A model generated the notes under the pieces. That model saw only the letters and a program-made list of their open reading frames with translations, had not been told where the DNA came from and searched no databases. The position numbers were made by a program, and so were the translations under genes. DNA of 64,000 bases from Candidatus Poribacteria bacterium (GTDB lineage Bacteria; Poribacteria; WGA-4E; PCPOR2b): the NCBI GenBank assembly GCA_022822785.1, contig JAJEAL010000145.1:1-64000 (forward strand), read 5' to 3'. Each line of letters opens with the position of its first letter. The stretch's first letter is position 1. Below are positions 6,324-60,805 of this stretch, in pieces.

Positions 6324-6379
6324 GATACTACTCCTTTTTCGTCTACAGTTGAAATCAACCTTAGGGTCATTTAATTCTC

Positions 6380-6478
6380 CTGTAGTTCGATCTCCCGGTT
6401 GAGGCTACGGCGGGGCAAGTCGCTTTGGATCCCGATTTATCGGGGATGCCCCGCCTACGGCTGGCTGCATAAGTCCTG
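6380..6478. repeat. Interspersed palindromic element with TCCCGATTTATCGGGGA core, copy 1
   Basis: A stretch reading TTCGATCTCCCGGTTGAGGC, then a GGCGGGGCAAGT segment, then ATCCCGATTTATCGGGGATG is repeated with few changes at 48040-48130. It ends in CTGCATAAGTCCT, which matches the terminal repeat of the 47632 element. Cores of the same palindrome also occur near 465, 47690 and 53805. Confidence 0.6.
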
Positions 6479-6490
6479 CTACAGTTGAAA

Positions 6491-7912
6491 TCAACCTCCA
6501 TCCATTGGACGATACGGATCGATAAAACGATTCTCCGCATCCTTGTGCCGCGGTGGGGGCAGGGCATCGACTTTACCGCGCAACCTTGCAAGTGCTTCAG
6601 CATAGGCGGGGGTGTCAATCAGATTGTTACATTCATCGGGATCGCTCGATAAATCGAACAACTGTTCGGGCCAACCGGCATCGTTATCGAATCGAAAATA
6701 CTTCAGGTCATCCTGCTTGACCATCACAGACGGACCATTATGAACACGCCAGAGTTCGCTGTAGACCGTGTTCTGCCAATCATCGGTACTCCCGTCGATG
6801 AGCGGCACCAACGAGCGGCCATCAAGTTCGTCGGGAGCAGGGATGTCAACTAAGTCGCATAGCGTCGGGAACAGGTCTACCAACGATACATTTTGTTCGA
6901 TAACCTGCGGCTCACGTCCGAACCGTTTCGGATTCCAGATAGAAAACGGCACACGCGCCGACGCATCAAAGAAACTCTGTTTCTCCCACACCCCTTTCGT
7001 GCCAAGCATCTCGCCGTGGTCCGAGAGAAATACAATGATGAAATCGTCGAGGACGTTGAGGTGTTCCAATTTCTCGATTACACGACCAAACTGCTGGTCC
7101 ATCCAGTCGATCATGCCGTAGTAGGCGGCGGTAGCACGGTGCGCCTGACGGTGCGTCACATCCTCACCAAAGCGGACTCTGAAGAAATCGCTGCACTCAA
7201 ATTTATCGTTCGGATCCTCAATGATTGGCTCGACACGCTGCATGTAATAGGTGAACAGGTCAAGCGGACACTGATACGGATAGTGTGGGCACCATAAGCT
7301 CACCGCCATGCACAACGGATTCGGTGTGTACCGGTCATAGGAGGCGTCCACAAAATACTCCTCAAGGAACAGTAGAGCACCATCTACAGCGTACTGATCG
7401 TGGAGCATCCAGTATCCCATTCCCGGTTGCGCATCCCGAATCTCTTGGATAACCTTGTTCTGTTTAGAACCGGCCCCCGGCTCTCGCTGAAATTGGGCGG
7501 TGTGTTCATCATTAACGGCTGGATAAGGGTAGCCGTTATCACCCACAATGTCCCGACCAACCCGTTCTCGCCAACCGTGCATGACATCCTTGCCGACAAA
7601 GTGCATCTTTCCCGCCGCACACGAGTAGTAGCCGTAGTTGCCCAGATGCCCCGGAATGGTTCGCACCTCGGTAGGCATCGGATCGCCGAAGTTGAGGCTG
7701 CCACAGTTCCGCGGATAGAGGCCGGAGATAAAGCTCTGCCGTGCCGGCACACAGATAGGCGAGGGCGTGTACGCATTCCGAAAGTAAGTCCCCTCGTTGA
7801 TAAAGCGATCCAACGTAGGCGTACGGACCTGTCGATCGCCTTCAATAGGCAAAACATCAGGACGATGTTCGTCGTTGATTAACAGCAGCACATGGGGTTT
7901 TTGCTGAGACAT
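6491..7912 (-). CDS. Type I sulfatase (formylglycine-dependent)
   Basis: 473 residues, alkaline-phosphatase superfamily fold. The sulfatase signature Cys-X-Pro-X-Arg is present as CVPARQS with Cys54 the residue converted to formylglycine, followed by FISGLYP. N-terminal metal-binding residues lie in LLLINDEHRPD and the later site in LSDHGEMLG. No signal peptide is visible, so either it is cytoplasmic or the substrate is imported. It hydrolyses sulfate esters; the substrate cannot be inferred. Maturation needs a formylglycine-generating or anaerobic maturase enzyme that is not in this window. Confidence 0.94.
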   Translation of the reverse strand: MSQQKPHVLLLINDEHRPDVLPIEGDRQVRTPTLDRFINEGTYFRNAYTPSPICVPARQSFISGLYPRNCGSLNFGDPMPTEVRTIPGHLGNYGYYSCAAGKMHFVGKDVMHGWRERVGRDIVGDNGYPYPAVNDEHTAQFQREPGAGSKQNKVIQEIRDAQPGMGYWMLHDQYAVDGALLFLEEYFVDASYDRYTPNPLCMAVSLWCPHYPYQCPLDLFTYYMQRVEPIIEDPNDKFECSDFFRVRFGEDVTHRQAHRATAAYYGMIDWMDQQFGRVIEKLEHLNVLDDFIIVFLSDHGEMLGTKGVWEKQSFFDASARVPFSIWNPKRFGREPQVIEQNVSLVDLFPTLCDLVDIPAPDELDGRSLVPLIDGSTDDWQNTVYSELWRVHNGPSVMVKQDDLKYFRFDNDAGWPEQLFDLSSDPDECNNLIDTPAYAEALARLRGKVDALPPPRHKDAENRFIDPYRPMDGG

Positions 7913-54979: not shown

Positions 54980-55930
54980 TTACCCCAAATCTTGTAGCAA
55001 ACATTCCCAACTCTGACGCTCACGCTCAGGGTCGAAAGTCGGCTTTAGTCGCTCGCACCACGTTTTGAGCGCTTCATAAAACGCGGCATCCGTCTCAACC
55101 CGTAAAAGCAGATCCGTCAACGCCTGTGTATCGCCTACCGGAAAGTAGCCGGGATAATCCTCCCCCAATAGACCGATTGAGCCAGATATCCGTGACGAAA
55201 TGACAGGCACAGCACACGCAATCGCTTCCGAAACGGCATTCGCCCCTCCCTCCATCTGCGAGGTCAGCACGAGAACCCGACTCCGTGCGAGGACTCGAAG
55301 CGCCCGCCAGCGTGGGAGTTCCCCTAACCAGCGGTAACGCGGATTGCTAGACGCTTCGGCGTCTGCCTCCGCTTTCATATCGTCGGTGAGTGCTCCCCCA
55401 ACATGTACCACCTGAATTCGGGAAGACGGAGGCAATTGTCGGGCTGCCATTGCGGCCCGGAATGGGTCTTTTACGGGACGCAGATGTCCCAGCACACACA
55501 ATTCAAAAACGTTCTTTTTCGGAGAAAACACCCCCGGCGGTGCTGTCACCGATTGATAAATCACCCGCGCTTTAGCCCGGAGATGTTCTGAGAGTTCTTC
55601 AATGCCCGCCGGTTGCAATAGCACGAAACGATCCGCCATCTCCAAGGATTCTTGGGCTGAGGTGTCCGTATGGATATCGCCGTAAAGGTCTGTTCCGGTC
55701 AGCGCGAGGATGAGCGGCAGTTCCGGGTATTCGTGACGGAAACGCACCATAGCGGCGTGGCTGCGACGCGCATGGAGCGCGACTAGCACATCACATCGTT
55801 CCCCGTGATACTCTTCCGCGATAACGACACGGTGACCGAGTTCCCGTAAGAGACGCGCCCACCGAAGCGCAGTCACACGGTTACCTTTTCGAGAGTATGT
55901 TGGGGCAGGCGTAATTAGACAGATTTTCAT
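54980..55930 (-). CDS. senB: SenB-type selenosugar synthase (glycosyltransferase, TIGR04348 family)
   Basis: 316 residues, GT-B fold. MKICLITPAPTYSRKGNRVT and ALRWARLLRELGHRV are the distinctive start of the TIGR04348 family, now known as SenB: it joins selenophosphate to a UDP-sugar to make a selenosugar in selenoneine synthesis. LVALHARRSH, ALTGTDLY and the C-terminal nucleotide-sugar site LTSQMEGGANAVSEAIACAVPVI-like region are present. It lies next to selD, which makes selenophosphate, as in sen clusters. The third gene of that pathway, senA (selenoneine synthase), is not in the window. Confidence 0.88.
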   Translation of the reverse strand: MKICLITPAPTYSRKGNRVTALRWARLLRELGHRVVIAEEYHGERCDVLVALHARRSHAAMVRFRHEYPELPLILALTGTDLYGDIHTDTSAQESLEMADRFVLLQPAGIEELSEHLRAKARVIYQSVTAPPGVFSPKKNVFELCVLGHLRPVKDPFRAAMAARQLPPSSRIQVVHVGGALTDDMKAEADAEASSNPRYRWLGELPRWRALRVLARSRVLVLTSQMEGGANAVSEAIACAVPVISSRISGSIGLLGEDYPGYFPVGDTQALTDLLLRVETDAAFYEALKTWCERLKPTFDPERERQSWECLLQDLG

Positions 55931-56033: not shown

Positions 56034-57095
56034 CTATCTAAAAACAAGATAGTTCGGTTCGGCAAAAGACTTCACGTCCCCGATGACTTGCGCTTCTGTC
56101 ACACCACCATTGTGCAAAGCCCTCAACAGCGATTCGCTTTGAGAGGCGGGCACAGACATCAGGAGCCCGCCGCTAGTCTGCGGATCAACAAAGATTTCTT
56201 CATGCCACTCAGGGAGCGATTTCTCAAAATGCGCGGAATCCTCAATCAACGCGCGATTGGCAGCATTAACCCCTGTCCGCATCCCTCTTTCGTACATCTC
56301 CAGCGCCTCGCTCATCGTCGGCACCTCGTCGGTGCGAATTTCTAAAGTCACGCCTGACCCTTCAGCCATTTCTAAAGCATGACCGCCTAACCCGAATCCG
56401 GTGATGTCCGTCACCGCATGGATGTCAAAATCAACCATAACCGCTGCCGCCCCCTTGTTGAGCGTCGTGATAGCCCCTATGCACTCCGCTAGTGCTTGGT
56501 CTGACACCCAGTTTTTCAGATTGGCGTTAAAAAGTACGCCGCTACCAATCGGTTTCGTCAAGATTAGGACATCTCCCGGTTCGGCACCGACATTTCGCCA
56601 ATACTTTTCCGGATGCACAATTCCAGTGACCGATAACCCAAACTTGGGTTCCTCATCATCGGTCGTATGCCCGCCCGCTAGGACCGCGCCGGATTCGGTG
56701 ATTTTACTCAGTGCCCCTTCGACAATACCGTGCAGGATTTCTGGACCCAATTTGTCCGCGGGAAACCCCACCAAATTCAGACAGGTCACCGGTCTGCCGC
56801 CCATCGCATAAATGTCGCTGATGGAATTTGCTGCGGCGATTTGACCGAACAGATACGGATCATCCACCGGCGGTGTGATAAAGTCGGCGGTTGTAACCAA
56901 TGCCATCTCGTCGTTCAGGCGGTAGATACCCGCATCATCGCTCGTCTCAAACCCAACGAGCAGATTTGGGTCGTTCTTCTTCGGCAATTTAGCGAGAAGT
57001 TCCCCCAGTCCAACTGGACTGACTTTCGCCGCTCACCCGCACGTTTTTGCAAGGCTTGTGAGTGTATGTTTTCGTGACAACCTATTTAGGTTCAT
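56034..57095 (-). CDS. selD: Selenide, water dikinase (selenophosphate synthetase), itself a selenoprotein
   Basis: 353 residues with one in-frame TGA at 57033-57035. Without recoding, translation could only begin after that codon, losing the active site. The ATG at 57095 has GGGAG upstream. Residues 19-24 read Cys-Gly-Sec-Ala-Ala-Lys: the TGA falls exactly at the catalytic Cys/Sec position of SelD (family motif G-[CU]-A-A-K), followed by Lys24. Later motifs agree with the family: TADFITPPVDDPYLFGQIAA, DIYAMGG, GGHTTDDEEPKFGLSVTG and DPQTSGG. It makes selenophosphate from selenide and ATP, for selenocysteine tRNA and for SenB. A SECIS-like hairpin follows the TGA. Confidence 0.92.
57006..57021 (-). 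promoter_or_regulatory. Bacterial SECIS-like hairpin in selD
   Basis: On the coding strand, 11 bases after the TGA, CAGTCC pairs perfectly with GGACTG around the loop AGTT. The loop contains G-U, and it begins 17 bases after the TGA; known bacterial SECIS loops lie about 16-37 bases downstream and carry a conserved G. It would bind the SelB elongation factor. Confidence 0.65.
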
Positions 57096-57129: not shown

Positions 57130-57216
57130 GACATCAGAAACCGAGTTTTCAAGAAAAAACTCGGTTTCTCTTTATGCTTCGCACTTTCCTTTTACATGAG
57201 CCAACTCGGTTTCTCT
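57130..57216. repeat. Hairpin MITE family A, copy 7
   Basis: Hairpin at 57136-57169 and right end CCTTTTACATGAGCC, followed by an extra piece CAACTCGGTTTCTCT. It separates selD from the small gene at 57234. Confidence 0.75.
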
Positions 57217-57233
57217 AATCTCGTGTAATACAA

Positions 57234-57440
57234 TTATGCCATAGCGGCTTTTGCCTGCGCTAACGCCTCAGATTCCGCATCAGCGCGGGTCTCAGCCGTA
57301 GACCGAGAAATGACAGCACCGGGGCTTACATTGTCTACAGTACAGATATACGCATCACCGAGTTGGTAGGATCTAATCCGAACCGTCCATTTTCCAATAG
57401 CTTCGGTTCGGGTTTGATGGTTTTTAGGGGTTTGCGCCAT
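57234..57440 (-). CDS. Small conserved-looking protein of unknown function
   Basis: 68 residues, AAGGAG 10 bases before the ATG. GKWTVRIRSYQLGDAYICTV is beta-rich and is followed by an Ala/Glu-rich helix (ETRADAESEALAQAKAAMA); this resembles a small single-domain fold. No signal peptide. It begins 29 bases after the stop of the MetE-like gene, so the two are in one transcript; function unknown. Confidence 0.75.
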   Translation of the reverse strand: MAQTPKNHQTRTEAIGKWTVRIRSYQLGDAYICTVDNVSPGAVISRSTAETRADAESEALAQAKAAMA

Positions 57441-57469: not shown

Positions 57470-58585
57470 TCAGTTCCACATCTTTCTAGCGGTCTCGACA
57501 ACTACCGATAGCTTATGTCGCTGATCTTCTTCGGTTATGTGATTGCCGAGGACCGAAGTTGCGAAGCCGCACTGTGGACTCAACGCGAGTCGTTCTAGCG
57601 GCATAAATTGATTGGCTTCCTTGATACGCATCGCAAGTTCCTCCGGCGTTTCCCGACGCCCTGTTTTTGTCGTGACCAACCCTAAAACGGCAATCTTGTC
57701 ATCGGGAATGAACCGCAACGGTTCAAAGGAGCCGGAGCGTTCATCGTCGTATTCGAGCAGCAGCCGCTGGGCACGGATGCCCTCGAAAATCGGTTTAGCA
57801 ATCAGCTCGTAATCCCCTTCGACCAACCACCGGCTGCCCTGATTACCGCGTCAGAGGTGAAACCCAAATGTCACCTCCGGAAAATCGCCAATCACAGCAT
57901 TGTCCATCTCAATGCCTCGATCCAGCCACCGATTGAGCCCCCAACCTTGCTTTTCGTAGAAGGTTCTGGTCTTCGGATCAAGCAGCAACGGATAGTGAGG
58001 GGCATCAAGCTGAATGTAGGTTGCGCCGAGTCGAACCAACTCGGCGACCTCATTCCGGAGAATATCAACGACATCCGCAAGAAAGCTGTCGAGCGTCGGA
58101 TACGCTAACAGAGAGTGTTCTGACGACCAGAAGTTTGTCCATAGACTCGGACTTGGCAACGTAACCTTCGGGATGCGAGTCGTCCGCGCCCGTAGATAGG
58201 TGAACTCCTCCGTTGACAGGTGACGTTTACGTTTGAGTTTGCTTACAACACCCAAATTCTTGGGACGTTCTAAACTCAAGTTGCCCGCGTCTCCATCACC
58301 ACGCCAATCACCCCAGAGGAAGGCGTTGAGATCGTATTCACCGAAACCGGCGACCGCCTCCGTCATCTGGCTCTGGAAGGATAACCTACGCATTTCACCA
58401 TCGGTAACAACATCCAAGCCCACCGCTTCCTGCAGCGCAACCGCCTCGTCAACCGCTTGGTCCTCGACAGCTTTGAACGCCGCTTGCGTCATTTTGCCCG
58501 CAGCGACTTCGCTTCTCGCTTTGAGGAGTTCAGGCGGACGGAGCAGACTTCCAACGACATCGGTATGCGCCGCAGTCATGGGCAT
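57470..58585 (-). CDS. MetE-like (COG0620) zinc methyltransferase with a selenocysteine codon at the zinc ligand
   Basis: 371 residues if the single in-frame TGA at 57851-57853 (codon 245) is read as selenocysteine; the halves on both sides are in the same frame. The N-terminal half has ADVVGSLLRPPEL-type start (HTDVVGSLLRPPEL), VGLDVVTDGEMRRLSF and YIQLDAPHYPLLLD. The junction reads His243-Leu-TGA-Arg-Gly-Asn; relatives such as YxjG/YxjH read His-X-Cys-Arg-Gly-Asn, where Cys binds the catalytic zinc. The second half has LLLEYDDERSG (Glu278) and LSPQCGFAT (Cys339); the 61-residue Glu-Cys spacing equals that of E. coli MetE. Members move methyl or alkyl groups to thiols. selD lies downstream, supporting recoding; a nonsense mutation is the alternative. 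Confidence 0.85.
57824..57836 (-). promoter_or_regulatory. Bacterial SECIS-like hairpin in the MetE-like gene
   Basis: Fourteen bases after the TGA, CAGCC pairs with GGTTG (one G-U pair) around the loop GGT. The loop begins 19 bases after the TGA and contains G-U, as in known bacterial SECIS elements. The stem is shorter than in selD. Confidence 0.5.
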
Positions 58586-59698: not shown

Positions 59699-59772
59699 GC
59701 TCATGTTAAGAAATAGTACAACAGAAACCGAGTTTTGAGGAAAAAACTCGGTTTCTCTCCGTGTTCCGCGTA
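59699..59772. repeat. Hairpin MITE family A, copy 8
   Basis: Left end GCTCATGTTAAGAAATAG and hairpin at 59723-59756. The right end is less conserved and reaches the stop codon of the DUF59 gene. Confidence 0.75.
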
Positions 59773-59774
59773 GC

Positions 59775-60536
59775 TTAGTTTTTGCCTTTCCGTGCTGCCA
59801 ACACAGCGGTACAGAATGACCCGTTGGCTTGCAGAGCAACACGCACGGTGCGCGCACGTATCAGGTACTCCTCTAACCCCTCAGCAGTTACCTCGTTACC
59901 ACGCAGATCGATTATCAAAGGCGCGGTAGGCGAGCAATCAAGATTTATTTCCGCTCGACGCTGGAAGTATTGACGAGCGACTTCGGCATCCCCAACATCA
60001 CAAATCCGACCATTGTTACGCCGGATCCGGCAAGATTCGTTCTCAAAATAGAGGTCGCCAATGCGTAGGAGGGCAATCTCCTCGAATGATAGCCCCGCAT
60101 TTTTTAAGTTCTGTAACAAGCGTTCTTGACGCCGGATATACCCTTTGCGGAGAAAAAGATCGCTGAGTTGACACAGGTTTTCAGATGTTTCATCCGGGAA
60201 AGCCTCCGAGAACGATTTACCGGCGTTCACACTCGCCTCAATTGTCTGCGCAGCGAAATGGTCTTTCAAACGAACTGTGACATCGTGAAGCCCTTCAACC
60301 GTCAAAAGTTCACGGCGGGTATCCTCAGCCATCATATAGGAGAAGTTGGGCGCACACCAGTAGGTTGGAAGGTGCAGTTCGATTGTCAGATGCCCGCTTT
60401 CGGCTTCAATCGACTTGACGAAGCCAAGTTTGAGGATGGACTCATCCAGTTCGGGATCAAGCACCTTTTCTAACCGCTTGAAGATGATTTCTCGATCCAA
60501 AGTATCAGGAAGCGATAACCGCACATCATCGTACAT
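59775..60536 (-). CDS. DUF59/MIP18-type iron-sulfur assembly domain protein
   Basis: 253 residues from the ATG at 60536, which has GGAGGGAG upstream; the longer frame only adds four codons. Residues 10-95 are a DUF59 domain (LEKVLDPELDESILKLGFVKSIEAESGHLTIEL-type pattern, THR/Cys in LPTYWCAPNFSYMMAED). The rest is a long helical C-terminal region with scattered Cys, unlike short SufT/PaaD proteins. DUF59 proteins help mature iron-sulfur or di-iron enzymes. It follows directly on a truncated alcohol dehydrogenase gene. Confidence 0.8.
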   Translation of the reverse strand: MYDDVRLSLPDTLDREIIFKRLEKVLDPELDESILKLGFVKSIEAESGHLTIELHLPTYWCAPNFSYMMAEDTRRELLTVEGLHDVTVRLKDHFAAQTIEASVNAGKSFSEAFPDETSENLCQLSDLFLRKGYIRRQERLLQNLKNAGLSFEEIALLRIGDLYFENESCRIRRNNGRICDVGDAEVARQYFQRRAEINLDCSPTAPLIIDLRGNEVTAEGLEEYLIRARTVRVALQANGSFCTAVLAARKGKN

Positions 60537-60574
60537 TTCTCCCTCCACTTACGCCGGGCTGGATTCCCATCAAT

Positions 60575-60805
60575 AACCCAACCGGCGTTTTCATGTCCCA
60601 TGATGTAGGGCAACAACGCGCCCTCCGCATCCATCACATCCCGCCATACCCCTTCGATGATGTGCAGATCAGTCCGGCACAAGCCTGCAGCGCCGACACG
60701 AACAATCACGTCTTCAGGGTCACTGATGGTTGGCTCAGGTACGGTTTCAATTTTAAGATCGACGTTCATCTCTTTGTCGTACGCATACAGTTGAGCGGCT
60801 TTCAT
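60575..60805 (-). pseudogene. Truncated zinc-dependent alcohol dehydrogenase
   Basis: The first 77 codons encode the N terminus of a medium-chain dehydrogenase: DVIVRVGAAGLCRTDLHIIEG with the catalytic zinc Cys and its His, and LPYIMGHENAGWV with the His-Glu pair. Homology then stops and the frame runs into the leader of the DUF59 gene. About three quarters of the normal protein (about 340 residues) is missing, so this is a deletion remnant. Confidence 0.85.

Follow-up and report, generated by a model that had tools for sequence, protein, structure and literature searches.

Can a methyltransferase of the MetE type hold its zinc with selenocysteine (Sec)? The question is raised by a gene in a 64,000-nucleotide (nt) stretch of DNA (the window) on contig C25 of a Candidatus Poribacteria genome (G000; 5.6 Mb, 96% complete). 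From the ATG at 58585, or possibly the ATG at 58579, to 57470 on the minus strand, one reading frame runs through 371 amino acids plus a stop, interrupted only at codon 245, a TGA (57851 to 57853, minus strand). The first-pass annotation had described a protein split by one TGA with both halves in the same frame, and this description is correct. The codon stands in the context EVTFGFHL-U-RGNQGSRWL, and a second TGA terminates the gene.

With the TGA translated as Cys, a domain search gave only one match, to PF01717 (Meth_synt_2; E = 2e-15, residues 8 to 345). The NCBIfam models PRK06520 and PRK06233 cover the protein end to end at scores below their cut-offs (241 versus 313 and 223 versus 576, respectively), in keeping with the end-to-end match to the COG0620 family claimed earlier. 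The protein is a Meth_synt_2 barrel without the N-terminal folate barrel. The zinc ligands of Thermotoga maritima MetE are His618, Cys620, Glu642, and Cys704 (PMC539065). The HxC pair of MetE corresponds to H243-L-U245, and the TGA falls on the second zinc ligand, Cys620. In an alignment of 13 diverse orthologs H243, U/C245, E278, and C339 are invariant except for the Cys-to-Sec exchange, which agrees with the proposal that the TGA is the codon of a zinc-ligand Cys. Also invariant in this alignment are S13, E76, and D194, which are aligned to the residues that bind homocysteine in MesD (3RPD). A structural model made by AlphaFold (AF2) from an alignment had a pLDDT of 88 and a pTM of 0.89, and its closest folds were MetE (1t7l and 1xpg) and 1ypx; UROD and MtaA-type folds scored far lower. 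(A model made without an alignment had a pLDDT of 34 and was discarded.) The closest solved structure is 1YPX, a YxjG-like putative B12-independent methionine synthase of Listeria, which matched over the full length (E = 1e-69; 25% identity in the fold alignment) and has the motif HICRGN, with Cys at the ligand position.

A chance nonsense mutation at precisely this codon had been considered unlikely, and a search for relatives with Cys or TGA there had been suggested. For the Poribacteria, 85 genomes were searched at a threshold of E = 1e-60, and orthologs were found in seven (75 to 100% identity), each with one stop only, the TGA at codon 245. The same TGA is present in one genome from a different group (L036; 69%) and in three Chloroflexota genomes (G285, G365, and G516; 65%), which brings to 11 the number of genomes with TGA at exactly this position. 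In the rest of the relatives inspected, codon 245 is TGC or TGT and no stops occur elsewhere; neither a different stop nor a frameshift was seen in close relatives. One further TGA, in G407, was rejected as a Sec codon because it is the terminal stop. The TGA at codon 245 also recurs across genomes that were assembled independently, among them a one-contig chromosome of 5.16 Mb (L031/G001). On a tree computed with the TGA codon masked, at least three changes between the Sec and Cys states are needed, and the Chloroflexota Sec species neighbor a Cys species that is 91% identical.

Purifying selection acts on the segment 3' of the TGA, where dN/dS is 0.04 to 0.18 within Poribacteria and 0.09 to 0.16 among the Chloroflexota copies. 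These values bear on the rival readings of a pseudogene, a fault of assembly, or two halves translated as separate proteins, the second of which could start from a TTG at 57826. However, dN/dS is low on both sides of the TGA, and the seven residues from the TGA to this next possible start, RGNQGSR, are conserved, their codons varying only synonymously, which argues against separate translation from the TTG. With an identical TGA in 11 genomes and no further disruption in any of them, we rejected a nonsense mutation, a sequencing error, and a split gene, and we consider the probability of these readings to be very low.

The selA, selB, and selC genes, whose absence from the genome had been named as a ground for doubt, are present: SelA, SelB, and tRNA-Sec are encoded next to each other, in a row, on contig C141, and ARAGORN and Rfam agree on the tRNA-Sec, which has the anticodon UCA. 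SelB was found in 8 of 8 TGA genomes examined (the seven of the Poribacteria and L036), and the two ortholog-holding genomes without SelB both have the Cys form. Cys stands at position 245 in each of the other relatives inspected, as would be expected if an unusual tRNA read UGA as Cys, or as some other residue, and the protein had an ordinary Cys zinc site. But the genome has a canonical tRNA-Sec (UCA) gene alongside selA and selB, the selD gene near the MetE-like gene bears a classical Sec codon, and the one low-scoring extra tRNA candidate examined, a tRNA-Sec-like sequence on contig C42, proved to be a tRNA-Trp and was rejected. Such a decoding is very improbable.

A small hairpin had also been reported to start 14 nt after the TGA. 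It does so (CAGCC-GGT-GGTTG; 57824 to 57836, minus strand), with a stem of 5 bp and a loop that contains a G and starts at nt 23 (counting from the U of the UGA), and it has the same position in the TGA copies. The corresponding loop is at nt 21 in the SECIS-like hairpin of selD (57005 to 57022, minus strand; 7 bp), which served as a positive control, at nt 24 in the hairpin of SenB discussed below, and at nt 22 in what we take to be the Escherichia coli fdhF hairpin. As an argument, though, the hairpin carries less weight than had been given to it. It did not beat synonymous-codon shuffles (P = 0.04 to 0.44), the conserved GSRWL largely imposes the stem, and some Cys relatives have the hairpin as well (e.g., G158, G264, and G423). 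Thus, it is compatible with a SECIS element, and we rejected it as independent proof of one; a CGG codon as a feature specific to the TGA copies was also rejected. An Rfam scan of the window gave no matches.

The exchange of TGA and Cys at one codon, the Sec machinery of the host, and relatives free of other disruptions support the original candidate, and the gene very probably encodes a selenoprotein with Sec at its zinc site. Known selenoproteins are mostly redox enzymes, and we know of no natural alkyltransferase with a zinc-bound Sec. Neither the MetE-like family nor SenB is among the 119 prokaryotic selenoprotein families of a May 2026 review (PMC13188914). Other selenoproteome papers and full-text searches yielded no MetE-like selenoprotein, most subscription papers being outside our reach. 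The MetE-like protein has the UGA/Cys exchange and the Sec machinery in common with SelD, FdhA, and the NiFeSe hydrogenase. In the latter two, Sec is a metal ligand, a role known for it in Mo/W and Ni enzymes (PMC13188914), whereas Sec in the MetE-like protein would bind zinc at a site of alkyl transfer. Sec as a first-shell ligand of zinc in a site for methyl transfer, with at least three gains or losses of that state, would widen the roles of selenium in proteins, and the natural Sec/Cys pairs, such as the sister species at 91% identity, allow a direct test.

With MetE and the core methionine synthases MesA to MesD (COG0620), the protein shares the barrel, all four zinc-ligand positions, and the three homocysteine-binding residues. 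The Mes enzymes likewise have no N-terminal folate domain, and they use methyl-corrinoids or other methyl donors (PMC7857596). The MetE-like protein differs in that its second zinc ligand would be Sec and not Cys (MesC has mostly His at this position [PMC7857596]), and its family was not placed in any Mes group. A link between zinc-type methyltransferases and selenium has been described for the Mlp proteins of type 1 gene clusters, one of which moves a methyl group from methylcobalamin to selenide; the SCMT homologs occur in anaerobes, and Sec has not been reported in them (PMC10418091). Mlp and SCMT are of the UROD type, whereas the MetE-like protein has no UROD-family domain.

Homology with MetE suggests how the enzyme might work. 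SelB and Sec-tRNA(Sec) would decode UGA 245 as Sec, and the product would be a single-barrel MetE-type (COG0620) zinc methyltransferase with zinc on His243, Sec245, Glu278, and Cys339. Glu278 would yield once zinc is bound by the thiolate (or selenolate) of a homocysteine-like amino acid, which, as the zinc-bound nucleophile, would then accept a methyl or alkyl group. Because the N-terminal folate barrel is missing, plain methyl-folate is an improbable donor, and a corrinoid or a different methyl donor would be likelier. With Sec as a ligand, the zinc site would probably be a stronger electron donor and could be oxidized reversibly. A Zn-Se bond is feasible at such a site, for MetE can bind Se-homocysteine through one (PMC539065). 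We infer the Zn-selenolate chemistry from homology, and by inference the Zn(His, Sec, Glu, Cys) site would activate an amino-acid-like thiol or selenol. That the methyl group goes to a homocysteine-like acceptor has, in our judgment, slightly less than an even chance. Our best reading of the sequences is a selenoprotein, a putative zinc methyltransferase that would work without folate, hold its metal in part by a selenolate, and be linked to the metabolism of small selenium molecules.

The last part of this reading comes from the locus. The selD gene had been placed two genes downstream, which is right; we add that one small conserved open reading frame of 68 amino acids lies between (57237 to 57440, minus strand; 84 to 93% identical in L031 to L034) and that selD is itself a Sec form. 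It encodes selenophosphate synthetase (56034 to 57092, minus strand, start codon provisional; TIGR00476, 373.7 bits) with an in-frame TGA at 57033 to 57035 (minus strand; CGUAAK) that is kept in 6 of 6 relatives. The open reading frame caller starts selD after this TGA, and the gene would be annotated as truncated. Next is senB, for selenosugar synthase (54980 to 55930, minus strand; TIGR04348, 407.9 bits versus a cut-off of 300), here in the Cys form. The order MetE-like gene, selD, senB is kept in the genus, with the MetE-like gene upstream. On its other side the conserved neighbors are genes for an amidohydrolase (PF04909; 58640 to 59668, minus strand), whose position is conserved in the genus, and an FeS_assembly_P protein (PF01883; 59775 to 60548, minus strand). 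The host genome also has senA elsewhere, followed by an egtD homolog. The locus thus has selD and senB in common with the Sen cluster (SenA/SenB/SenC-SelD) for selenoneine, whose described pathway has no MetE-like member. Linkage to sen genes is found in independent lineages, with selD-senB in Poribacteria and senA (519 bits) adjoining the gene in the TGA relative L036; in the Cys relative L067 the neighbor is egtD. Among the neighbors of most Cys copies we found no common function.

The association extends to gene content. SenA is present in 19 of 21 ortholog-holding genomes versus 9 of 59 nonholders (P of about 1e-9, the genomes not being independent samples), and SenB is present in 18/21 versus 10/59. 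Outside the Poribacteria the values for SenA are 12/14 and 2/37. Among the Chloroflexota, from which 400 genomes were drawn evenly, SenA is found in 3 of 14 holders of a close ortholog and in 3 of 386 others. Since 11 of the 14 close Chloroflexota orthologs are in genomes without SenA, selenoneine is no obligate partner, and a strict dependence on SenA was rejected. The association with SenA and SenB is real but not obligate, and gene order and co-occurrence point to a loose connection of the enzyme with the metabolism of small selenium molecules (selenoneine).

Two narrower explanations of its function were weighed. The enzyme may be dedicated to selenium, methylating or demethylating a selenol (selenohomocysteine, selenoneine, or the selenosugar of SenB) in selenoneine metabolism. 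The gene order in Poribacteria, L036, and L067 and the co-occurrence with SenA favor this, as does the binding of Se-homocysteine by the MetE zinc site (PMC539065); furthermore, G207 and G208 lack SelB yet have SenA, SenB, and the Cys form. Against it are the scarcity of SenA among the genomes with close Chloroflexota orthologs and the several Poribacteria that have SenA and SenB without the MetE-like gene. We regard this as the better of the narrow explanations but a doubtful one, and a natural zinc-selenolate alkyltransferase that performs a dedicated step of a selenium pathway, its Sec-held zinc activating a selenol or the matching thiol that is produced or consumed close to selenoneine biosynthesis, is put forward only tentatively. 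Alternatively, the protein could serve as the acceptor component in demethylation of the corrinoid or quaternary-amine kind: an MttB-type enzyme would take off a methyl group, which the MetE-like enzyme would hand to a thiol. In the Chloroflexota genome G526 the ortholog (73% identical, Cys form) and an MttB-family gene (PF06253) overlap by 8 nt, with a second gene of that family upstream (L155:2221-3756 and 6326-7873, the latter being the overlapping one). This overlap suggests a methyl-transfer partner, and the core MetE homologs do use methyl-corrinoids (PMC7857596). However, the arrangement is found in one genome only, with no MttB gene identified beside the other orthologs, and such a system is unlikely.

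For the preferred reading, a putative zinc methyltransferase linked to selenium metabolism, the tie to senA, senB, and selD offers a concrete approach to an uncharacterized group of enzymes and to the selenometabolome of sponge symbionts. The host is a sponge-associated bacterium, and the gene lies beside genes for the synthesis of a selenium-containing antioxidant. SenB appears to be a second case of Sec/Cys exchange. Five Poribacteria (L076, L077, L088, L090, and L092, from genomes G008, G007, G006, G011, and G014, respectively) have an in-frame TGA in senB at the position of codon 145 of the window gene, which is Cys in the window's genus. The context is FEV-U-V[LI]GHLRPVKDP, dN/dS 3' of the TGA is about 0.07 to 0.10 where estimable, and a hairpin with GU in the loop follows. 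The Sec form of SenB is thus a candidate for a second unlisted selenoprotein family. In contrast to these conserved codons, the single in-frame TGAs in SenB of L087 (codon 130) and L075 (codon 171) are at non-Cys positions and are probably mutations or errors. If the MetE-like enzyme is indeed dedicated to a selenium pathway, as put forward tentatively above, Poribacteria as a group would rely on genetically encoded selenium for three enzymes of that pathway: SelD, SenB, and the MetE-like protein itself. Under the standard code, the genes for all three would be annotated as shortened or divided.

Two minor features of the region were also observed. At 60470 to 60805 an alcohol dehydrogenase gene is cut to 111 amino acids; the gene in L032 and L033 has 347, and the match to the window is limited to the first 77 of these. 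A 52-nt repeat at 57131 to 57182 and 59718 to 59769 (85% identical) flanks the gene pair, and each copy is a palindrome (GAAACCGAGTTTT...AAAACTCGGTTTC), perhaps a REP-like element.
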